Positions 3,807 to 33,645 of a stretch of 64,000 bases of DNA are shown here, in pieces. A program made the position numbers and the translations under genes. This DNA is from Streptomyces sp. NBC_00483. Lineage in GTDB: Bacteria; Actinomycetota; Actinomycetes; Streptomycetales; Streptomycetaceae. The notes under the pieces are model-generated. The model saw only the letters and a program-made list of their open reading frames with translations. It had not been told where the DNA came from and ran no database searches. Where the stretch lies: contig NZ_CP107880.1 of assembly GCF_036013745.1 (NCBI RefSeq), forward strand, positions 5,332,001-5,396,000. Reading direction: 5' to 3'. Within the stretch, counting starts at the first letter, position 1; the number at the start of each line of letters is the position of its first letter.

Positions 3807-4801
3807 GCGGCGTCCTCCTTGGTGAGCGGCGTGACCGGCGGCTCGGGCTGGAATCGGCGCAGCACGACGAACGCGGCGACGACGGCCAGCGCGGTGAGCC
3901 CGAGCAGGACCCCGGTCTCGGCGAGCTGACGCGGCCAGTAGTCGGGGGAGGGGAGGTAGTGGCGGGTGAAGCCGGTGATGTCGTGCTGGTCGAGGCAGCG
4001 CTGCGTCATGCAGCCGGGGTCGCGGATCTCCGCCCCGGTGGAGGTGATCGCCTTGCTGTGCACGGGGATTTCCGGCTGTTGGTAACTGCCCTGGAGCGGC
4101 CAGGAGTTGGAGCGGAACGCGCCCACCAGGTACGTCACGATCCCGGCGAGGGCCGCGGCCGACAGCGTGCGCCGCAGCACCAGCGCTGCCAGCACCCCGA
4201 TGGCCAGGCCGAACAGGGCGTTCGCCACCGTCGCGGGACCCACGGAGAAGTCGAAGTCGCGCGGTCCGATGCCGGCGACGAGCAGATGGTTGCGGCCGCC
4301 CCAGACGAGGCGGTAGAGGATCACGACGAGCGTTGTGCCGACGGTGATGAGCAGCGCGGGCACGTACAGCTTCGCCGCCAGCCAGCGGGCGGGGGAGATG
4401 GACTGGGTCCATGCCAACTGGGCGGTGCCCTGCTCCAGTTCGCGGGCGATCAGCGGGCCCGCCGCGAAGACGGCGATGGCGCACGCGGCGATCCGGGCCA
4501 GCGTCAGTGGATCGTAGAAGAGGGTGTCGAGGCTGTTGCCGATGAACGGCAGGAAGGCGGAGATCGCGCTCTGGAACGCGTTGTCCTGCGCTCCGCCGTA
4601 GCCGAGCTTGTCGAACGCCGCCTGGGCGTCCGCGGAGCCGGGGCCCCACAGCCACAGGAGCAGGCCGAGGCTGACCGCCACGTAGCCGATCCACACCCAC
4701 ATCGCACCGCGGTGCAGCCGCAGGACCGTCCACGCCAGGCCGTCGGGTCCGGGCTTCGTGCGGCGCACGGCGGAGGGCTTGTCGAGGGCCGGGGCGCTCA
4801 T
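3803..4801 (-). CDS. ABC-2 type transporter permease (paralogue)
   Basis: This 332-residue membrane protein is paralogous to the next gene. Both share the SPARWLA(A/T)KLYVPA segment, a Cys pair before the last membrane segment (GCMTQRC) and the same topology. It is the middle gene of the GntR-ATPase-permease-permease operon, with ATGA overlaps on both sides. Such YtrA/B-like operons usually export or sense drugs or cell-wall-active compounds. That is a family-level inference, since no substrate-specific feature is visible. Confidence 0.88.
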   Translation of the reverse strand: MSAPALDKPSAVRRTKPGPDGLAWTVLRLHRGAMWVWIGYVAVSLGLLLWLWGPGSADAQAAFDKLGYGGAQDNAFQSAISAFLPFIGNSLDTLFYDPLTLARIAACAIAVFAAGPLIARELEQGTAQLAWTQSISPARWLAAKLYVPALLITVGTTLVVILYRLVWGGRNHLLVAGIGPRDFDFSVGPATVANALFGLAIGVLAALVLRRTLSAAALAGIVTYLVGAFRSNSWPLQGSYQQPEIPVHSKAITSTGAEIRDPGCMTQRCLDQHDITGFTRHYLPSPDYWPRQLAETGVLLGLTALAVVAAFVVLRRFQPEPPVTPLTKEDAA

Positions 4802-24901: not shown

Positions 24902-26194
24902 ATGAGTAACCGTGCCGCCACCCCTGATGACCGCGAAGCAATAGACGTCCGGGCCGTCACCGAGGACGAGCTGCCCGACTGGTGCCGCACCCTCGACACC
25001 GGCTTCCTGCGCCCCCCGACCGCCTCACCCCAGAGGGTCGCCAAGGTCCGCTCCCACTTCGACCTCACCCGCACCCGCGCCGCCTTCGCCCCCGCCGGAG
25101 GCGACGGCACCCGCCAGGTCGCCACCTTCCGCTCCTTCGCGCAGGAGCTCACCGTGCCGGGTGGCGCCACCGTCCCCACGGACGCGATCACCAACGTCAC
25201 CGTCAGCCCCACGCACCGCCGCCGCGGCCTGCTCAGCCGCATGATGGCCGCCGACCTCGCCGAGGCGAAGGAACGCGGCGACGTCGCGGCCACGCTGATC
25301 GCCGCCGAGTACCCGATCTACGGCCGGTTCGGCTTCGGCCCCGCGACCACCACCACGACCTGGGAGATCGACGTGGTGCGGTCCGGTCTCGACGCCCGCT
25401 GGTCGGGGCCCGACGGCGGCGGCCGGGTGGACATGGCCGACGCCGAGGAGATCCGCAAGGTGGGCCCGGAGCTGCACACGAAGCTGCGCGGACGGGTCGC
25501 CGGTCTTGTCTCGCGCGGCGAGCAGTGGTGGCAGTACAACACCGGCCTGTGGCCGACCCCGGAGGACCCGTGGACGGAGCCGTTCTACGCGGTGTACCGC
25601 AACGCGCGCGGCGAGGTGGAGGGCCTGGTCGCGTACCGCACGGAGGCCCGGTTCAACGACCACATGCAGCCGACGTGCACGGCGAAGGTGCAGGACCTGC
25701 TCGCTCTCACCCCGACCGCCGAGCGGGCCCTGTGGCACTTCGTCTGCTCGGTCGACTGGGTCACCGTCGTGGAGAGCGGGCACCGCGCCTCGGACGACCT
25801 GTTGCCGGACCTCCTCCCGGACCCGCGCGCGGCCCGCGTGACGCAGCAGGCCGACTTGATGTGGGTGCGGATCCTGGACGTCGTACGGGCCCTGGAAGCG
25901 CGCTCGTACGACACCAGCGGGGAGATCGCGTTCGAGGTGCTCGACCCCGCGGGGCTCGCGGGCGGGCGGTTCACGTTGACGGCGGCGCCCGGTGGGGCGG
26001 TCTGTTCGCCGGGCGCCGCCTCGACCCAACTCACGGTCGACGTACGCGAGTTGGGTGCTCTGTGGCTGGGCGGCGAGTCCGCGGTGCGGCTCGCCGCCCT
26101 GGGGCGGATCGTGGAGCACGAGGAGGGTGCGGCCGCCGGGCTCGGCGCCCTGCTGCGGACCTCGCGGCGGCCGTGGTGCCCCGATGTGTTCTGA
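24902..26194 (+). CDS. Eis-like GNAT N-acetyltransferase
   Basis: This 430-residue protein has the three-part Eis layout: N-terminal GNAT domain with acetyl-CoA loop [16 protein letters not shown], a second degenerate GNAT domain, and a C-terminal SCP2-like domain ([15 protein letters not shown]). It ends in ...PWCPDVF, whose terminal carboxylate serves as catalytic base in Eis. Family members acetylate amines of aminoglycosides, peptides or metabolites. The natural substrate here is unknown. The start ATG 24902 lies after a repeat-rich spacer and no clear Shine-Dalgarno is seen. Confidence 0.9.
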
Positions 26195-26271: not shown

Positions 26272-26310
26272 GACCGGGCTCCCGGCTCCCCTCCGGAAGG
26301 GAGCCCGGTC
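26272..26310. terminator. Bidirectional terminator, acetyltransferase / membrane peptide
   Basis: GACCGGGCTCCC and GGGAGCCCGGTC form a perfect 12-bp stem with a 15-base loop between two convergent genes. The distal arm touches the stop codon of the reverse-strand peptide gene. Confidence 0.8.
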
Positions 26311-26494
26311 AGCCGCTCTGGGCGAGCAGCATCACGAGGACGACGGCCCCGATGCCGCTGATCACGGTGTTCTTGGCCTTGAGGCCGATGGAGAGAACGA
26401 TGAAGGCGATGATGCCCATCGGCCCGTACTTCCACTGGATGAGCTGCTCGAACCCGATGGCGAGTGCGGCGATGACGATGGCGAAGAGCGGCAT
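26309..26494 (-). CDS. Small hydrophobic membrane protein, paralogue A (61 residues)
   Basis: This 61-residue protein consists of two hydrophobic helices (LFAIVIAALAIGFEQLI and GIIAFIVLSIGLKA / ISGIGAVVLVMLLA) linked by QWKYGPMG. It is clearly paralogous to the protein at 27668: both have EQL-QW-YGP-G, then IG-KA-N, then S-G-V-L. AGGAGGT at ideal spacing precedes the ATG. It is divergent from the first GntR gene across a palindromic operator, the same arrangement as paralogue B. I do not recognise the family. Inference: it is a target of the neighbouring GntR regulator. Confidence 0.8.
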   Translation of the reverse strand: MPLFAIVIAALAIGFEQLIQWKYGPMGIIAFIVLSIGLKAKNTVISGIGAVVLVMLLAQSG

Positions 26495-26527
26495 TGTCCT
26501 ACCTCCTTCAGGACCTGAGGTCCTTAG

Positions 26528-26579
26528 TGGTGACCAACTTCAGGTCCCCCGACCATGTCCGGGAAGTTGGTCACCAACT
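26528..26579. promoter_or_regulatory. Paired operator in the first GntR/membrane peptide divergent region
   Basis: AGTTGGTCACCAACT (26565-26579) is a perfect 15-bp palindrome. Its outer part repeats in inverted form at 26528-26540 (TGGTGACCAACTT against AAGTTGGTCACCA, 13 bp). The AGTTGG-N3-CCAACT core recurs before the other two GntR genes. Binding by the GntR proteins is inferred. Confidence 0.7.
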
Positions 26580-26649
26580 CAAAGGTAGTTATCTCCGTTG
26601 AAGGGCGGCTCATAACCACCTTCACCTCAACTCCCCAAAGATGGCGGGA

Positions 26650-26665
26650 AGTTGTAGGGTTTGGT
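26650..26665 (+). promoter_or_regulatory. Conserved AGTTGT-N5-TTGGT element at GntR-1 start
   Basis: AGTTGTAGGGTTTGGT abuts the GTG start of the first GntR gene. The same composite element, AGTTGT-N5/6-TTGGT, occurs at 27965-27981, 28028-28043 and 29807-29823, each upstream of a paralogous regulator. It may be a half-operator overlapping the promoter. Confidence 0.55.
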
Positions 26666-26666
26666 T

Positions 26667-27617
26667 GTGAGTGGGGAGCATGCCGCCGTCAACGGACGGC
26701 CCAGGTCACAGCGGGCGCGCTACACGCACCGCGAAGTGGCCGACGCGCTGCGCGACCGGATCACGTCCGGCCGCCTGAGTCCCGGCCAACGGATGCCTAC
26801 ACAGGCACAGTTGGCGGGCGAATTCGGTGTGGAGCGCTCCGCCGTACGTCAGGCGCTGCGCATTCTGCAGTCCGAGAACCTGTTGGTGAACGCCACGAAG
26901 GGCAGCCCGGCCACGGTCGCTCGGCATCCGCGGCCCGCGCTGCTCGGCCCCGAGGCGCAGCCGCAGTCGACCATGGTGACGCTCGCTCCGCGCATCGCCG
27001 AAGCCTTCCAGCAGGCCGACGTGGAGATCGACGCCCTGTGCATGACGGCGGTCTCGTTGACCCTCGCGATGGGTGAACCGCTGCGCCTCATCCACGAGGG
27101 GCGTACGAAACCGGCCAGGGTCCGGGTGCGGGTGCTGCTGCCGAGCCGGGACATCGACCTCGCGTTTCCCGCGCCCGCGCCACCGGTCGTCGAGCCCGTG
27201 TCGCGGGCGGCGGAGGCCTCGCGGGCGGAGGCGGCGGTGGGCGGCAGGCTGCGGCGCGACTGGCTGGCGCAGCGCAACGCGCAGGGGCAGGTGCTGCGCC
27301 ACAATCTGCTGGCTCTGCGGGCCACGCACGGCATGGACGTCACGGTGGAGTTCCGCGCGCTGCCGTTCACGCCCCCGGTCAAGCTCTACCTGCTCAACAG
27401 CAACGAGGCGCTGTTCGCGTACTACACGCTGGCCAGACACGGCGAGCAGATCGACCATGAGCGGGTGGATGTGTACGACGCGCAGGGCGTGCGGCAGATG
27501 CTCTTCGCGTTCGAGCACGGGGCGGGGCTGCGCGACACGACGTTCGTGGAGCAGTCCCACCTTTGGTTCAACGGCCTGTGGAACACGATCAGCCAGGACC
27601 TGTGGCTCAGCTCATGA
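26667..27617 (+). CDS. GntR-family regulator 1 of a three-paralogue set
   Basis: This 316-residue protein has a GntR winged helix at residues 15-85 (HREVADALRDRITSGRLSPG, MPTQAQLAGEFGVERSAVRQ) and a ~220-residue C-terminal domain that I cannot assign to FadR, HutC or MocR types. Conserved blocks shared with the paralogues are LLPSRDIDLAFP, WLAQRNAQGQVLRHNL, TVEFRALPFTPPVKLYLLN and FVEQSHLWFNGLW. The block VKLYLLN...W(F)..LW recalls sensor domains of some nucleotide-signalling regulators, with low certainty. The start is GTG 26667 (or TTG 26661), probably leaderless because a conserved promoter-like element abuts it. Confidence 0.85.
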   Translation: MSGEHAAVNGRPRSQRARYTHREVADALRDRITSGRLSPGQRMPTQAQLAGEFGVERSAVRQALRILQSENLLVNATKGSPATVARHPRPALLGPEAQPQSTMVTLAPRIAEAFQQADVEIDALCMTAVSLTLAMGEPLRLIHEGRTKPARVRVRVLLPSRDIDLAFPAPAPPVVEPVSRAAEASRAEAAVGGRLRRDWLAQRNAQGQVLRHNLLALRATHGMDVTVEFRALPFTPPVKLYLLNSNEALFAYYTLARHGEQIDHERVDVYDAQGVRQMLFAFEHGAGLRDTTFVEQSHLWFNGLWNTISQDLWLSS

Positions 27618-27671
27618 CGGTGGGCCCGGCCAGTGATGGCGGGCCCGGTCGGTGACGGTGGGCCGGTTCAG
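27615..27671. repeat. Three 19-bp tandem repeats bridging two convergent stop codons
   Basis: TGACGGTGGGCCCGGCCAG, TGATGGCGGGCCCGGTCGG and TGACGGTGGGCCGGTTCAG follow one another exactly. The first begins with the GntR-1 stop codon, and the third contains the reverse-strand stop of membrane peptide B. They could serve as a compact bidirectional terminator or be slippage products. Confidence 0.8.
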
Positions 27672-27859
27672 TGCAGCGCGGGCCCGGCCACTGTGAGTGC
27701 GAGCAGCACGCCGCCCACCGAACTACAGGTGGCATTCCTGGCCTTGGCGCCGATGGCGAGCAGGAGCAGGCCGGCGAGGCCGGCCGGACCGTAGTGCCAC
27801 TGCGCGAGCTGCTCGAAGGCGATCACGACCACCGCGGAGAGGAGGCTGAGAACGGACAT
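27668..27859 (-). CDS. Small hydrophobic membrane protein, paralogue B (63 residues)
   Basis: This 63-residue protein has helices LSLLSAVVVIAFEQLA and GLAGLLLLAIGAKA plus GGVLLALTVAGPA. It shares EQL-QW-YGP-G and IG-KA-N with the 61-residue protein at 26309. GCAGGAGGAA precedes its ATG. It is divergent from the second GntR gene across an AGTTGG-N3-CCAACT palindrome. The repeated [membrane peptide]-operator-[GntR] pairing indicates a duplicated module. Function unknown; a membrane effector controlled by the GntR protein is the simplest idea. Confidence 0.8.
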   Translation of the reverse strand: MSVLSLLSAVVVIAFEQLAQWHYGPAGLAGLLLLAIGAKARNATCSSVGGVLLALTVAGPALH

Positions 27860-27942
27860 GGTGGTTCCTCCTGCTTCGGCGTTGCTTCGCTGATGGGCCT
27901 TACTTGGTCTCCTTCGTTGCCACCATCGGCCACCTTCTTCCA

Positions 27943-27981
27943 AGTTGGCGACCAACTGCACTGGAGTTGTCCCCACTTGGT
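27943..27981. promoter_or_regulatory. Operator in the second GntR/membrane peptide divergent region
   Basis: AGTTGGCGACCAACT (27943-27957) is a perfect 6-3-6 palindrome, followed eight bases later by AGTTGTCCCCACTTGGT (27965-27981). The same two-part order, with near-identical sequence, occurs at 29785-29823 before GntR-3. Confidence 0.75.
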
Positions 27982-28004
27982 CGTGGTATATAAACAGGAG
28001 GACG

Positions 28005-28043
28005 ACAACTCGCGCCAAATCACGGTGAGTTGTGCCGTTTGGT
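28005..28043 (+). promoter_or_regulatory. Second AGTTGT/TTGGT element and inverted half-site before GntR-2
   Basis: ACAACT (28005-28010) and AGTTGT (28028-28033) form an inverted pair. The latter continues as AGTTGTGCCGTTTGGT (28028-28043), ending 22 bp before the GTG start. It is a second copy of the composite element in the same regulatory region. Confidence 0.55.
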
Positions 28044-28065
28044 CGGGGACCCAGGGGAGCAGGGC

Positions 28066-28962
28066 GTGGCGGACATGGCAGACGCGACACTGAACGGCAG
28101 GAGAAGGCTCACGGCCCAGGAGATCGCCGACCAACTCCGCGAGCGCATCAGGGAGGGCGCGCTGCGGCCGGGCGACCAACTGCCCACGCAGGCCACGCTC
28201 GCCGATGAGTTCGGCGTCGAGCGCGGCACGGTCCGTCAGGCGCTCCAGCTCCTGGAGACGGACGGCCTGCTGAGCAAGCGCAGCAAGGGCAGCCCGCCGC
28301 GGATCGCCCCGGGATCCGCCGCGCGCGACGAGCCGCAGCCCTCCATGGTCGCGCTCGCCCCCCGCCTGGTGGAGGCCTTCCACGCCTCCCACGTCCGTAT
28401 CGACGCGGTCTGCATGACCTCCGAAACCCTGATGCTGGCCCTCGGCGAGCCGCTGCGCCACATCCACGAGGGCCGCATCCGCCCCGAATCCCTCGACGTA
28501 CGCATCCTGCTGCCCAGCCGCGACATCGACCTGGCGTTCCCGGTGCCGGTCCCGGACGGCAGCGACGGGATCGACCACGACGAGGGCGTCGCGGTGCACA
28601 ACCGCTGGCTGGCGCAGCGCAACGCGCAGGGCCAGGTGCTGCGCCACAACCTGCGCTCCCTGCGCTCCTCGCACAACATCGATGTGCGGGTGACCTTCCG
28701 CGCGCTCCCCTTCACCCCGCCGGTCAAGCTCTACCTGCTGAACCAGTCCGAGGCCCTGCTCTCGTACTACATGGTCACGCGGCGCGAGGAGGAGATCGAC
28801 AACGACACCAAGCTGGAGATGTTCTCGGCCACCGGCACGCAGGCCCTGCTCTTCTCCTTCGAGGAGCGGGCGGGCCACCGCGACCGGACGTTCGTGGAGG
28901 AGTCGCAGAAGTGGTTCGACGCCCTCTGGGAAACCATCACCTCCGACCTGACACTCTCCTAG
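28066..28962 (+). CDS. GntR-family regulator 2 of a three-paralogue set
   Basis: This 298-residue paralogue of the protein at 26667 is nearly collinear with it. The winged helix is TAQEIADQLRERIREGALRP, then LPTQATLADEFGVERGTVRQ. The C-terminal blocks are LLPSRDIDLAFPVPVP, WLAQRNAQGQVLRHNLRSLR, FRALPFTPPVKLYLLNQSEA and FVEESQKWFDALWETI. The GTG at 28066 has AGGGGAG seven bases upstream. Its stop codon overlaps the GTG of the HAD gene (TAGTG), so regulator and phosphatase are translationally coupled. A ligand chemically related to the HAD or kinase substrate is a reasonable inference. Confidence 0.87.
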   Translation: MADMADATLNGRRRLTAQEIADQLRERIREGALRPGDQLPTQATLADEFGVERGTVRQALQLLETDGLLSKRSKGSPPRIAPGSAARDEPQPSMVALAPRLVEAFHASHVRIDAVCMTSETLMLALGEPLRHIHEGRIRPESLDVRILLPSRDIDLAFPVPVPDGSDGIDHDEGVAVHNRWLAQRNAQGQVLRHNLRSLRSSHNIDVRVTFRALPFTPPVKLYLLNQSEALLSYYMVTRREEEIDNDTKLEMFSATGTQALLFSFEERAGHRDRTFVEESQKWFDALWETITSDLTLS

Positions 28963-29747
28963 TGACTTCAGAGATGACGAAGCAGACTGTTCCGGTGGCA
29001 GAAGAGACCGAACCAAGTCGGAAATCGGCCGAACAGGGCGACGCGCGAGAGTCGGGCACCCTCGCGGACCTGATCGCGAGCGCCCGCCATGTCCTCTTCG
29101 ACTTCGACGGCCCGATCTGCCGACTGTTCGCGGGCCGCCCGGCGGCGGGGATCGCGCGGGAGCAGGTGGAGTGGCTGGATGCGCAGGGGCTCGGGGACAT
29201 CCTGATGGCCGAAGAGCGCGTTGACGCGGACCCGCACACCGCGCTGCGCCGCCTCGGCCGGGAGCGGCCGGGCACCGACCTGGTCGAGGAGATGGAGAGT
29301 GGGCTCACCGAGCAGGAGCTGCGCGCCGTCGCCTCCGCCTGGCCCACGGAGCATGCGGACCCTCTGATCCGCACCTGGACGGCGGTGGGCACCCGCCTCG
29401 CCATCACCACCAACAACTCGGCCGAAGCGGCCCGCCGCTACCTCGCGAGCCGCGACCTGTCCGGTTGCTTCGAGCCGCACATCTACGGCCGCACGAAGGA
29501 CCTTTCCCACCTCAAGCCCGACCCGTACTGCCTTCATCGCGCCATGTCGGCGATGGGGGCGGCGCCCGCGGCCACGCTGATGATCGGTGACGCCGTGTCG
29601 GACCTGGTGGCGGCGCGGCGGGCGGGCGTCGCGTTTCTGGGCTACGCGCGTAATGACCGCAAAGAGGCCGTCCTGCGGGAGGCGGGAGCCCGGCAGGTGA
29701 CCGCAACCCTGGAACCGATCATCGACATTCTGCGGGGCCGCGCCTGA
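28962..29747 (+). CDS. HAD-superfamily phosphatase
   Basis: This 261-residue HAD hydrolase has all four motifs: HVLFDFDGPICRLF (nucleophile and acid Asp), AITTNNS (motif II), HLKPDPYC (motif III Lys) and MIGDAVSDLVAARRAG (motif IV). The helical cap of about 70 residues between motifs I and II is of the phosphoglycolate-phosphatase type. GTG 28962 overlaps the GntR-2 stop; an ATG four codons later is an alternative start. The last 25 residues (VLREAGARQVTATLEPIIDI) cover the usual C-terminal tail. The substrate is unknown. Linked kinase domains downstream suggest opposing phosphorylation and dephosphorylation of one metabolite. Confidence 0.88.
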   Translation: MTSEMTKQTVPVAEETEPSRKSAEQGDARESGTLADLIASARHVLFDFDGPICRLFAGRPAAGIAREQVEWLDAQGLGDILMAEERVDADPHTALRRLGRERPGTDLVEEMESGLTEQELRAVASAWPTEHADPLIRTWTAVGTRLAITTNNSAEAARRYLASRDLSGCFEPHIYGRTKDLSHLKPDPYCLHRAMSAMGAAPAATLMIGDAVSDLVAARRAGVAFLGYARNDRKEAVLREAGARQVTATLEPIIDILRGRA

Positions 29748-29784
29748 CCTGCGATTCCCTCGCCCTTTGGCGCAAGCCGGGGGG

Positions 29785-29823
29785 AGTTGGCAGCCAACTG
29801 CCGTAGAGTTGTACGGACTTGGT
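29785..29823 (+). promoter_or_regulatory. Operator upstream of GntR-3
   Basis: AGTTGGCAGCCAACT (29785-29799) is a perfect 6-3-6 palindrome, followed by AGTTGTACGGACTTGGT (29807-29823). Both parts and their spacing match the site at 27943-27981. It lies 23-61 bp upstream of the GTG start. No divergent gene exists here, because the HAD gene ends 37 bp earlier on the same strand. Confidence 0.75.
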
Positions 29824-29845
29824 CGGGGGGTGAGGGGAGATCGTC

Positions 29846-30730
29846 GTGGTGAACGCGAATACGGAGAACGCCCCCAGACCCACCGCCGAGGAGATCGCCG
29901 ACGCCCTGCGCAAGCGGATCATCGGCGGAGAACTCAGGGCCGGCGAGCGCCTCCCGACGCAGGCCGCGCTCGCCCGGGAGTTCGGAGTGGAGCGCGGCAC
30001 GGTCCGCAACGCGCTGCAACTGCTGCGCTCGGAAGGCCTGTTGGCGAACACGGGCAAGGGTAGCCCGCCCACGGTGTCCCGCCCTGAGCGCCAGTCGCCG
30101 CCCGGCGCACAGGCGGCCAGAAGCATCCTGGGCCCACGCCTGGTGGCGGCCTTCGAGGCGCCGCAAGTGTACGTGGACGTGGCGAGCCTGACCGGGGAGA
30201 CGCTGGTGACAGCCCTTGGGGAACCGTTGCGGAAGGTGTACGAAAAGAAGCTGCGGCCGGAGTCGGTGCGGGTGCGGATGGTGGTGCCGAGGCCGGGCGG
30301 AGACGTCGACTACCCGGCTCCCGCCGCTGGTTGGGGCGTTGACGACAAACTCGACACGGCGGTCAAGCAGCGCAGCCGGATCCAGTGGACCTCGCAGCAG
30401 ATGGTGCTGGACAACACCTTCAAGCGCCTGCGTGACAACGGCGTCGACGTGAGCTTCGAGTTCCGCTTCGTCTCTGGAGTGCCGACCCGGAAGGTGTATC
30501 TCCTGAACCGGCAGGAGGTGCTGGTCGGGCACTACGTTCCGGATCGGTTCGAGCGGGAGATCGACGACTACGAGGGCGCGGACACGGTGGAGCTCGTGGA
30601 CGTGGAGGGCTTCGAGACCGAGATGTTCCCCTTCGAGCGCTCCAACGGCGAGGACCATGCCGCCTTCGTGGACGGGGAGCAGGCGATGTTCGACGGCCTC
30701 TGGGAGCACGTCGCGCAGCAGCGGACCTGA
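29846..30730 (+). CDS. GntR-family regulator 3 of a three-paralogue set
   Basis: This 294-residue third paralogue has the same winged helix (TAEEIADALRKRIIGGELRA, LPTQAALAREFGVERGTVRN) but a more diverged C-terminal domain. ETLVTALGEPLRKVYEKKLRPESVRVRMVVPRPGGDVDYP replaces the LLPSRDIDLAFP block, and VSFEFRFVSGVPTRKVYLLNRQ replaces the FRALPF block. This suggests a different ligand with the same operator. GTG 29846 is preceded by GAGGGGAG. The double-kinase gene follows after 144 bp, so joint transcription is possible. Confidence 0.86.
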   Translation: MVNANTENAPRPTAEEIADALRKRIIGGELRAGERLPTQAALAREFGVERGTVRNALQLLRSEGLLANTGKGSPPTVSRPERQSPPGAQAARSILGPRLVAAFEAPQVYVDVASLTGETLVTALGEPLRKVYEKKLRPESVRVRMVVPRPGGDVDYPAPAAGWGVDDKLDTAVKQRSRIQWTSQQMVLDNTFKRLRDNGVDVSFEFRFVSGVPTRKVYLLNRQEVLVGHYVPDRFEREIDDYEGADTVELVDVEGFETEMFPFERSNGEDHAAFVDGEQAMFDGLWEHVAQQRT

Positions 30731-30874
30731 ATCGTTCGCGTTCGAGCCCCTTACCCCCGTGAGTGTTTCTTTACACCTCGAATTCGGCCACTCCGGTCAC
30801 TCCGGTCGTCAGGGCTGTGCGTGCGCACTACTGTGTGGGCCTGTTACAGCCCGTGCTCGAGTCAGGAGCGGCCT

Positions 30875-33016
30875 GTGGGCGCTGCGGATGCCTGGCACCA
30901 CGTCGTGGAGCGTGCGGAGCACGACGGCGTGGCAGTCGGCGGTCAGCACAACATCAACCATGTGGTGCGACTGACCGCCGAGGAGGCACGCGCTCTCGAC
31001 CGCCCGCAGGACGCGCGGGTCGTGGTCCGTCGGCGCAGGGCGGACGTGCCCCCCGTGGTGATCAGGACCTGGGACGACGAGCCGGAGATCCTCGCGGCGT
31101 TACGCGATCGGGGCCGGCCCGTACCGGAGTGTCTGGCCCGGTTCGACGGCGTGGCCGTCCACAGCTACATGGAGGGCACACCTCTCTCGGGCATGCACGG
31201 GGACGACGAGCCGTCGGCCGAGCGGCTGATCGGCGCCTTCGCCGAGGCGCTCACGGACTTGGCACGAGTACCCGAGCGATGCCTGCCGGCCCGCCCCGCA
31301 TGCTGGCCGAAGGACGGGGACGGCCGGGGTTTCCTGAGGACGCTGCTGAACCGGGCCGAGGCGCAGATCCGGCAGGTCAACTGGCCGGCGTTCGGCGGGC
31401 TCTTCACGTCGTTGGGAGTTCCGGGGAACTCCCTGCGCCTGTATGCGAGCCGGGCGCCCAGAATGACGTCCCGCCCCTTTCAGCTCCTCCACGGCGACCT
31501 GCACCGGGGGAACGTGCTCGTCCCGCCCGGCGGTGAGTTCCGGTTGACGTTGGTGGACTGGGAGTTGGCGACGTACGGGGACCCGCTGCACGATCTGGCC
31601 GTGCATCTGGTGCGCATGGGGTACACCCCCGAGCAGCGGGGCCAGGCGATCGAACTCTGGCACAAAGCGATGTGGGGCGTGCGGCCCGAGGCCGTCGACG
31701 GCCTCGACTCCGACCTCGGGCACTACATCGACTTCGAGCGCGCGCAGTCCGTGTTCCCGGACGTGATCCGGGCGGCCGACTCTCTCGACGAGCACTGCGG
31801 TCAGAGCGAACTGGCAGCGGCGGCCACCGAGGTCCACCGGGCCCTGGAGGTGGCCTCGGGCCCGCTGCGGCTGCGCAACGTGCTGATGCCGTCCGCGATC
31901 GAGCCGCTGCTCTACCGGTGGCGCACGGCCAAGAAAGGGCGCGGTCGCGGCGAGGCCTTCGCGGCCTCGATCCACTGGGAGCGGGACGAACGCCTGCCCC
32001 TGCCCGCGGACTTCGGCCCCGACCGGGTCGAGCAGGCTCTGTGGTCCGAGCGGGTGGCCCCCGCGCGATACGTCTTCAAAGGGACGTCCCATCTGGGAAC
32101 GTTCGTGGACGTGCGGGGCTTCGGGCGCGTCATGGTCCGCCGCAAGGTGAGCACGGCCAACCCCATCGAACCCAGGGTCCTGGACGAGCACGCGGTGCTC
32201 CGGGCGATCGAGGAATCGGGCGCCGGGGCCAGCGTGCCGAGGGTGCTCGCGCTGGGCACGAGCGACTGGGGCGACCAGTTCACGATCCAGTCGTACGCGG
32301 GTCATCACCGCGACCGCGGCGGCCCGCAGCATCCGGAGCACGGGCTGCTGCCCGGTGAAGTGACCGACCTGGTCGACCAGCTGTGCCAACTCGCCGCCAC
32401 CCGGATCGATGTGGCCGAACAGGACATGGGTGGGCTCCGCTTCTACCCATGGCTGTGCAGCCAACTGTCCGTCCTGGTACGAGAGCTGTCGCCAGAGGCG
32501 AAGGAAGAGGCGGCCCGCCTCGGCCTTCCGGACGAGCACGGGGTGGAGGACCGCTTGCTGCGCCATGTGGTGCACGGGCGTCGTTATGGGCTGCTTCATG
32601 GGGATTTGAACCCCTGGAACCTGGTCAGGCGCGAGGGCAGGACGGGCCTCACCCTGATCGACTGGGAGATGGCCATGGTCGGGGACCCGCTGTACGACCT
32701 CGTACGGCACATCCACCTGACGCCGACGACCCGGGAGGTCCGGGGTCGGATGTACGCCCGCTGGTCGCAGCGGATGCCGGAGCAGTTCACCCATGGCTGG
32801 GCGAGCGACATCCCCGTCTATCAGGGCCTCGAAGTGGTCCGTTCCGCCTATGTGGACCTGGAGCGCGTGGTCACCCGCTCCGGCCTGGACGCCCCGAACG
32901 TACGGCGGGCCGTGGGCGCGTACCCGCTGACGCTCCGCAAGGCCCTGAGCTGGCTGGAGTCGCCCCCTCAGGGGCCGCGGTCGGCCCGGGCCCCGGCCCG
33001 TACGCTCGGGGCATGA
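30875..33016 (+). CDS. Tandem-domain aminoglycoside-phosphotransferase-like kinase
   Basis: This 713-residue protein has two APH-type kinase folds in one chain. Domain 1 has LLHGDLHRGNVL (His206 region) and LVDWELATYGDPLHDLA. Domain 2 has LLHGDLNPWNLV (His575 region) and LIDWEMAMVGDPLYDLVRHI. Both have the HGDxxxxN catalytic loop and the DxE metal motif, so both look competent. N-lobe segments (VGGQHNINHVVRL; KGTSHLGTFVDV) also correspond, which argues for internal duplication. The GTG start is chosen for AGGAG six bases upstream. Codon 76 (31100-31102) is TTA, so translation should need the bldA tRNA. The acceptor substrate is unknown. It overlaps tetR by four bases. Confidence 0.82.
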   Translation: MGAADAWHHVVERAEHDGVAVGGQHNINHVVRLTAEEARALDRPQDARVVVRRRRADVPPVVIRTWDDEPEILAALRDRGRPVPECLARFDGVAVHSYMEGTPLSGMHGDDEPSAERLIGAFAEALTDLARVPERCLPARPACWPKDGDGRGFLRTLLNRAEAQIRQVNWPAFGGLFTSLGVPGNSLRLYASRAPRMTSRPFQLLHGDLHRGNVLVPPGGEFRLTLVDWELATYGDPLHDLAVHLVRMGYTPEQRGQAIELWHKAMWGVRPEAVDGLDSDLGHYIDFERAQSVFPDVIRAADSLDEHCGQSELAAAATEVHRALEVASGPLRLRNVLMPSAIEPLLYRWRTAKKGRGRGEAFAASIHWERDERLPLPADFGPDRVEQALWSERVAPARYVFKGTSHLGTFVDVRGFGRVMVRRKVSTANPIEPRVLDEHAVLRAIEESGAGASVPRVLALGTSDWGDQFTIQSYAGHHRDRGGPQHPEHGLLPGEVTDLVDQLCQLAATRIDVAEQDMGGLRFYPWLCSQLSVLVRELSPEAKEEAARLGLPDEHGVEDRLLRHVVHGRRYGLLHGDLNPWNLVRREGRTGLTLIDWEMAMVGDPLYDLVRHIHLTPTTREVRGRMYARWSQRMPEQFTHGWASDIPVYQGLEVVRSAYVDLERVVTRSGLDAPNVRRAVGAYPLTLRKALSWLESPPQGPRSARAPARTLGA

Positions 33017-33645
33017 GCAGCCCCGACCCCGCCCCCGGCCTCCGCGAACTCAAGAAGCAGCGCACCCGGCAGACGCTCTCCGAGACAGCCGTCCGGCTGT
33101 TCATGGAGAGGGGGTACGACAACGTGTCCGTGGCCGAGGTCGCGGCCGCGGCAGAGGTGTCGAAGCCGACGTTGTTCCGGTACTTCGCGGCCAAGGAGGA
33201 CCTCGTTCTCCACCAGTTCGCGGATCACGAGGACGAGGCGGCGCGGGTCGTCGCGGGGCGGAGTGAAGGGGAGGCGCCGCTCGGGGCGTTGCGGCGGCAT
33301 TTCCTGGAGGGGCTGCGGCGGCGGGATCCGGTGACCGGGCTGTGCGATCACCCGGCGGTGCTCGCGTATCAGCGGCTGTTGTACGGGACGCCGCAGTTGG
33401 TGGCGCGGTTGTACGGGTATCAGGAGCGGTCGGAGCGGGCACTCGCGGAGGCGCTGGGCGGGCCCCCGGTGCGGGCGCGGATCGCTGCCGGGCAGATCGT
33501 GGCCACGCAGCGGATCCTCGCCGAGGAGAACGTGCGGCGGATCGTGGCCGGCGAGTCCGCCGACGAGTTGGAGGCGGCGGCCGTGAGTACTGCCGAGGAG
33601 GGGTTCCGGCAGTTGGGGGAGGGAATCGCGTCGCTCTACGGCTGA
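33013..33645 (+). CDS. TetR-family regulator
   Basis: This 210-residue TetR protein has the standard HTH (RQTLSETAVRLFMERGYDNVSVAEVAAAAEVSKPTLFRYFAAKEDLV, spanning residues 18-62). The C-terminal domain ends with GEGIASLYG. It starts at ATG 33013, overlapping the kinase stop (ATGA), so it is probably coupled to the double kinase. The palindrome TTGCAAGC-N4-GCTTGCAA 36 bp downstream of its stop is a typical TetR operator and could be its target in front of the next gene. Confidence 0.92.
   Translation: MSSPDPAPGLRELKKQRTRQTLSETAVRLFMERGYDNVSVAEVAAAAEVSKPTLFRYFAAKEDLVLHQFADHEDEAARVVAGRSEGEAPLGALRRHFLEGLRRRDPVTGLCDHPAVLAYQRLLYGTPQLVARLYGYQERSERALAEALGGPPVRARIAAGQIVATQRILAEENVRRIVAGESADELEAAAVSTAEEGFRQLGEGIASLYG

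Follow-up and report, generated by a model that had tools for sequence, protein, structure and literature searches.

In a 64,000-nucleotide stretch of the Streptomyces sp. NBC_00483 genome (hereafter the window), we analysed a block of genes at positions 26309 to 33016 that encodes three paralogous GntR regulators, two small membrane peptides, a HAD phosphatase and a double APH-family kinase. With a probability of about 0.6, we read the block as an accessory, autoregulated ligand-sensing cassette that is related to a GntR-HAD gene pair of mobile elements. These genes had been listed in an initial annotation and were all found with open frames, and their named close homologues are from Streptomyces. 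The shared operator, the predicted C-terminal fold of the GntR proteins, the relatives in mobile elements and the variable slot, which is flanked by a GNAT and a TetR gene, are additions to that observation. The block is arranged as follows.

26309..26494, minus strand: peptide 1, small membrane peptide of 61 residues, divergent from GntR1 (open frame)
26565..26579: predicted operator O1, AGTTGGTCACCAACT, between peptide 1 and GntR1 (exact match; conserved in relatives)
26661..27617, plus strand: GntR1, winged helix-turn-helix (HTH) and a C-terminal domain homologous to that of GntR2; start TTG 26661 or GTG 26667
27668..27859, minus strand: peptide 2, small membrane peptide of 63 residues, divergent from GntR2 (open frame)
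27943..27957: predicted operator O2, AGTTGGCGACCAACT, between peptide 2 and GntR2 (exact match; conserved in relatives)
28066..28962, plus strand: GntR2, winged HTH and a domain with a predicted dead phospholipase D (PLD) fold; start GTG 28066 or ATG 28075
28962..29747, plus strand: HAD phosphatase of 261 residues with catalytic motifs; GTG start overlapping the GntR2 stop (TAGTG)
29785..29799: predicted operator O3, AGTTGGCAGCCAACT, 5' of GntR3 (exact match)
29846..30730, plus strand: GntR3, third paralogue, without a divergent peptide (from Pfam and the tree)
30875..33016, plus strand: double APH-family kinase of 713 residues with two HGDxxxxN/DWE sets (PF01636)

The three GntR genes share a predicted operator

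The palindrome AGTTGGNNNCCAACT was searched in the host genome, a single contig of 10.24 Mb that was used for all genome-wide copy and palindrome counts. Three exact matches were obtained at the window positions 26565, 27943 and 29785, one 5' of each GntR gene, and 0.19 matches would be expected in the genome from its base composition. The conservation of the site was followed in 40 loci, which we picked and fetched from 39 of the 75 GntR-positive genomes (E <= 1e-25) in an even sample of 121 Streptomyces genomes. For 83 complete GntR genes from these loci, 350 bases 5' and 40 bases inside the gene were scanned. An operator site with at most one mismatch was detected before 41 of 49 close relatives of GntR1 and GntR2, 5 of 7 intermediate and none of 27 distant ones. 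Among the 37 genes without the operator, GTCCAATTGGAC was found in 9 and TAGCCANNNTGGCTA in 4. In the mobile-element-type loci described below, the core operator motif was absent from all 80 upstream regions; ACCTGC-N4-GCAGGT was present in 14 of the 80 and CCTGGCTAGCCAGG also in 14. Separate regulator lineages seem to have distinct palindromes next to their respective genes, which is expected of autoregulation. The operator common to the three GntR and the two peptide genes supports cross-regulation as a likely property of the block.

A second element, AGTTGTNNNNNTTGGTYG, is located at the starts of GntR1 (26650-26667) and GntR2 (28028-28045), and a version that is one base longer, read by eye, precedes GntR3. 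The region of the GntR1 TTG start recurs in relatives.

The C-terminal domain is a predicted, catalytically dead PLD fold

The GntR regulators comprise the FadR, HutC, MocR, YtrA and other subfamilies, and the described effector domains include FCD, UTRA and aminotransferase domains. GntR1, GntR2 and GntR3 scored 61.9, 69.9 and 62.5 bits with PF00392 at a Pfam cut-off of 27 and have an N-terminal winged HTH. GntR1 is 56% and GntR3 43% identical to GntR2. All Pfam matches of the three proteins were confined to the HTH region, and the C-terminal part of GntR2 alone matched no Pfam family at E <= 1, so that the domain is without an assigned family, as had been noted initially. For the other A4 members, no effector domain was found among the best 25 of 70 Pfam families. 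Sequence searches of Pfam, NCBIfam (best 25 families), PADLOC and the PDB sequences returned HTH matches only, and a profile of the domain detected no relative among the PDB sequences, with one match at E 1.3. In the whole genome, the domain was matched three times at E <= 1e-8, each time inside the block.

Since a fold search with the full-length model gave mostly HTH matches, the C-terminal domain of GntR2 was predicted alone. The isolated domain has a predicted PLD fold that resembles the sugar-binding domain of TrmB and the Nuc-type nucleases; in the fold comparison, the Z value for TrmB was tied with those for the nucleases and F13. The catalytic motif HxKxxxxD is broken. In all 62 of 62 rows, the K is kept, the D is replaced by N and the H by L, P, T, A or M. 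When more domains were included, K.[YC]..N was kept in 205 of 208, none of which has the H. The prediction for the GntR C-terminal domain is a PLD fold that has lost catalysis, which supports the earlier proposal that the GntR proteins may sense a small molecule.

The peptides, the HAD phosphatase and the double kinase

The two peptides are paralogous, as had been proposed, and with 61 and 63 residues they have the expected length. They are 41% identical over the residues 3-58, and their grand average of hydropathy is 1.45 for peptide 1 and 1.18 for peptide 2. In the genome, two significant peptide matches were obtained and a third at E 0.83. Peptide 1 has 238 homologues, and the named ones among the 120 listed are from Streptomyces.

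The coupling of GntR2 to the HAD gene by a TAGTG overlap was found to be exact, with the GntR2 stop at 28960-28962 and the GTG start at 28962-28964. The HAD motifs DFDGP, TTNN, KPDP and GDAVSD are all present, and at least 90% of 170 sequences retain the positions of the catalytic motifs. The genome has one close HAD match; the second, at E 4e-7, is 31% identical over the residues 93-226. The 713-residue protein indeed consists of two APH kinase units. PF01636 matched with 161.4 bits in two stretches, each with HGDxxxxN and DWE, and the halves are 29% identical to each other. The double kinase was matched once in the genome at E <= 1e-5. Neither the APH nor the HAD protein reached the cut-off of any NCBIfam equivalog among those listed.

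The cassette is conserved in Streptomycetaceae and occupies a variable slot

The block is bordered by two genes that are probably outside the circuit.

24902..26194, plus strand: Eis-like GNAT acetyltransferase, left slot border (present with and without the cassette)
33013..33645, plus strand: TetR-family gene, right slot border (a close relative follows GNAT in the cassette-less L229 and L243)

The GNAT border is included in 32 of the 40 fetched loci. In these slot loci, HAD was found in 31, APH in 30, the peptide in 32 and all three in 30. The gene strings range from GNAT-peptide-GntR-HAD-APH up to four GntR genes or three APH domain hits, and the minimal cassette is peptide-GntR-HAD-APH. 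Six of the eight remaining loci are GntR-HAD alone. In the even sample, the peptide was matched in 63 genomes and GntR in 75; 62 have both and one (G085) has the peptide alone. The Fisher value for this co-occurrence is 3e-20, a figure that ignores shared ancestry. Chance neighbourhood of the genes was ruled out by the conserved gene order, the co-occurrence and the three exact palindromes confined to the block. In 20 loci fetched from other Streptomycetaceae genera, HAD was present in 20, APH in 11 and the peptide in 7; in six of these loci, all three occur together with the GNAT border.

The GNAT gene was matched in 108 of the 121 genomes at E <= 1e-60, cassette-less ones included, and looks like a border because it is found with and without the cassette. 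The stretch after GNAT was read in 20 genomes without a chromosomal cassette; two of these, G019 and G023, carry a GntR relative at another place. In 9 of the 20, the next 5 kb include a close TetR relative, which in L229 and L243 lies only 204 and 361 bases after GNAT. The contents of the slot across the genomes show that the cassette is accessory and is gained or lost between more stable genes. In L230, HAD fragments in two overlapping pieces (1597-2022) stand between GNAT and TetR without GntR, which looks like a decaying cassette. In L241, a lone HAD of this family (3970-4635) occupies the slot without GntR or peptide matches.

Such a cassette could be an operon for the handling of drugs or xenobiotics, in which APH phosphorylates an antibiotic-like compound, HAD reverses the reaction or clears the product and GntR senses the compound. 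The APH fold with both catalytic motif sets, the accessory and in places plasmid-borne distribution and the adjoining Eis-like GNAT are consistent with this. However, every NCBIfam resistance model listed for the APH protein was far below its cut-off, the GNAT gene behaves as a border, and in mobile elements the GntR-HAD pair occurs without APH, as judged with the model used. We consider a drug operon unlikely.

The GntR-HAD pair is found in mobile elements and other families

The C-terminal domain was detected in 88 of 150 genomes of the family (11 of 17 genera), in 44 of 394 across the class (9 of 137 genera) and in 8 of 198 across the phylum (2 of 147 genera). In the loci of other families, HAD lies directly 3' of 14 of 14 full-length domains; the partial domains of L126 and L127, outside this count, also have HAD. 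A scan of named genomes yielded 274 loci, of which the best 80 were analysed (Kitasatospora, Micromonospora, Lentzea, Amycolatopsis, Saccharopolyspora, Salinispora and others). HAD stands directly 3' on the same strand in 79 of these 80 mobile-element-type loci, and the contig of the 80th ends 69 bases past the domain. In 78 of the 79, the GntR and HAD domain coordinates differ by a multiple of three, in agreement with a short overlap of stop and start codons as seen in the window; some loci of other genera differ.

At least one FtsK-like, RepSA, integrase or DnaB/DUF3987 gene was found within about 6 kb in 59 of the 80 loci. Such genes are typical of actinomycete integrative conjugative elements (AICEs). 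The other 21 loci have no such gene, and some of their contigs are short. Representative neighbours matched PF20199 (RepSA) and PF01580 (FtsK), a second FtsK group matched weakly and the integrase was below the cut-off. The FtsK, RepSA, integrase and DnaB models had no match in the slot loci or in the window block. The nearest divergent gene of the AICE-type loci was considered as a small membrane protein, but this was unsupported, since 72 of 79 were below the hydropathy cut-off with rough gene calls. Among plasmids, nine records have a nearly full-length GntR relative; four were read, of which three from Streptomyces have HAD and APH nearby. In phages, two matches were obtained, both at the HTH level.

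The GntR-HAD pair is a wide unit, and the peptide and most APH partners are found in Streptomycetaceae. The linkage, on which the initial annotation had made its circuit depend, extends beyond close relatives: the full set occurs in Streptomyces and other genera of the family, and GntR-HAD in several other actinobacterial families. The proposal of one regulatory unit is supported by the operator shared among three GntR and two peptide genes. It does not hold for the full circuit as a universal set, as the widely conserved core is GntR and HAD.

The AICE-type pairs of L112, L114 and L060 are located near MrcB_N/NOV_C, Abi_2 and HNH genes, which are possible defence cargo. These neighbours, the small hydrophobic peptides divergent from a presumed repressor, the occurrence of the GntR C-terminal domain in a membrane-anchored protein of some cassettes (see below) and the mobile, slot-like distribution would suit a toxin-antitoxin-like or defence unit. 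The peptide would then be a growth-arresting effector held by GntR, and HAD and APH would set a signal that is made on infection or element entry. PADLOC matches of seven proteins (peptide 1, the three GntR proteins, HAD, APH and GNAT) were weak and lay in HTH regions. In addition, ten proteins from six selected loci were the source of the defence-like neighbours, and cargo of this kind is to be expected on mobile elements in any case. A toxin or defence function is, in our view, quite improbable.

A membrane-anchored form of the domain and the history of the copies

Inside some cassettes, a second format was found in which a PLD-fold-type domain stands behind hydrophobic segments without an HTH. 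A model was based on five such proteins.

L049:11889-12776: membrane-anchored domain protein
L038:2458-3345: membrane-anchored domain protein
L040:1951-2838: membrane-anchored domain protein
L053:2654-3541: membrane-anchored domain protein
L052:3229-4119: membrane-anchored domain protein

The model matched in 11 of the 121 genomes; the three weakest (G026, G081 and G104) were taken from the match list alone. In 10 of the 11, comparison by eye placed the anchored protein and a listed GntR match on one contig, about 3 kb apart or less, and in G026 it was on another contig. No match at E <= 1e-50 was obtained in the window genome.

A tree of 99 domains, with a root for drawing only, united the three window copies in a single supported Streptomyces group (16-17 rows; 96/81, 98/91). 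Because they share this group, the window GntR copies most likely arose by duplication in this lineage. The AICE-type and other-family copies lie across a weak split (75/69) from the window group. An AICE origin of the chromosomal cassette was considered and could not be decided with this split and an arbitrary root. A GntR-HAD pair in a contig labelled as an Armatimonadetes metagenome-assembled genome (L193) groups with a Pseudonocardiales row (98/91), and the contig is possibly mis-binned.

The wide family of AICE-type GntR-HAD pairs and a slot that gains and loses genes, with the HAD fragments of L230, would also be expected if the cassette were a domesticated remnant of AICE regulation without a present circuit role. 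HAD and APH would then be unrelated metabolic genes in a hot spot of gene gain. This is very unlikely, since diverged Streptomyces cassettes have kept both the gene order and the operator, the catalytic positions of HAD are kept, the GntR-HAD coupling is nearly invariant and the split that bears on the direction is weak.

Proposed mechanism

In the ligand-sensing cassette that we propose, GntR1, GntR2 and GntR3 would be duplicated repressors that read one palindromic operator. The position and conservation of the sites are observed; dimers that bind and repress there would explain them. With one operator read by all three, the GntR proteins would regulate themselves, each other and the two peptide genes. 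Without ligand, they would occupy O1-O3 and hold down their own genes and the peptides. The dead PLD domain, with its predicted fold and lost catalytic His, may form a ligand pocket as in TrmB, and binding of the ligand there would free the operators. The ligand would most likely be a small polar compound, perhaps sugar-like or phosphorylated. The kinase and the phosphatase may plausibly form and degrade the ligand that is sensed; by altering its level or phosphate state, HAD and APH would set or reset the switch and close the loop. In the initial proposal, the APH product would be both the HAD substrate and the GntR ligand, and the peptides would connect the circuit with the membrane. GntR-HAD may be the minimal unit common to the AICEs, which in Streptomycetaceae was joined by the peptide and kinase genes. 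In the AICEs, other genes of the element are divergent from the pair and are probably under its control.

Several observations weigh against this reading. With two mismatches allowed, AGTTGGNNNCCAACT had 271 matches in the genome versus 261 for a reversed control, so that only the exact sites stand out, and 8 of the 49 close GntR genes have no operator within one mismatch. Two of the 32 slot loci are without APH and one is without HAD, and 13 of the 75 GntR-positive genomes have no peptide match. With the models used, the peptide and APH were absent from the 80 mobile-element-type loci and appear unneeded for GntR-HAD function there. For APH, the figure of zero applies only to the model used, which missed an APH-type gene after HAD in L124, a locus of another family. 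The fourth plasmid that was read, from Nocardia, encodes a GntR relative (L078:5959-6804) without HAD and APH, and the next gene is a glycosyltransferase of family 2. The predicted sites would suit activation as well as repression, and the three GntR proteins could have different ligands.

Relation to known systems

The window proteins share with the GntR family the PF00392 winged HTH, a palindrome beside the own gene and a C-terminal domain as the presumed sensor. They differ in this domain, for which a dead PLD fold is predicted and neither a Pfam family nor a described effector domain was matched. The predicted fold is shared with the PLD superfamily enzymes, whose HxKxxxxD motif is missing. 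The likeness to TrmB, an archaeal sugar-responsive regulator, lies in the sensor domain and concerns how the protein may work. The HTH is of the GntR and not of the TrmB type, and PF01978 (TrmB HTH) was matched in GntR2 and GntR3 only at E 0.15 and 0.2. The kinase and the HAD protein have the folds and catalytic motifs of APH (PF01636) kinases and phosphoglycolate-phosphatase-like HAD hydrolases. They differ in that the kinase is a fused double and is linked to GntR-PLD regulators.

According to PMC8584621, SCO3932 is a HutC-type, KorSA-like GntR regulator of an AICE remnant and binds a region shared with a divergent gene. A GntR protein of an AICE-type element and a promoter region shared with a divergent gene are the common features. 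In contrast to the HutC-type SCO3932, the window GntR proteins have no UTRA match in Pfam, and the block has none of the AICE genes modelled (FtsK/TraB, Rep, Int), of which the relatives' loci mostly have at least one. The words 'hydrolase' and 'phosphatase' are absent from the text of PMC8584621. The passages considered from PMC3218068, PMC11706625, PMC3364876, PMC9513070 and PMC13118837 concern either Streptomyces regulators as a whole or element genes of the GntR, XRE, Nudix or metal-dependent phosphohydrolase type, and do not mention a GntR-HAD pair. No description of the pair or of the cassette was found in the literature searched, which leaves most subscription papers outside, and S. coelicolor locus tags for the region gave no link to the cassette. 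The cassette is probably an undescribed sensing system.

It is conceivable, though doubtful, that APH is the writer and HAD the eraser of a phosphorylated small-molecule signal, with the dead PLD domain as its reader on a GntR HTH or a membrane anchor, and that the AICEs use a reduced reader-eraser pair to time when they leave repression. If true, this set would be an undescribed signalling system that spans actinobacterial chromosomes and mobile elements.

Taken together, our analysis points to a GntR group with a sensor fold outside the Pfam models searched, which was detected in 75 of 121 Streptomyces genomes and in other actinobacteria and is tied to a phosphatase gene. The one operator common to the circuit makes it testable with one reporter. 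If HAD controls the ligand, the enzyme would be a direct handle on what the regulator senses and, in the AICEs, could provide a metabolic cue for the release of transfer repression.

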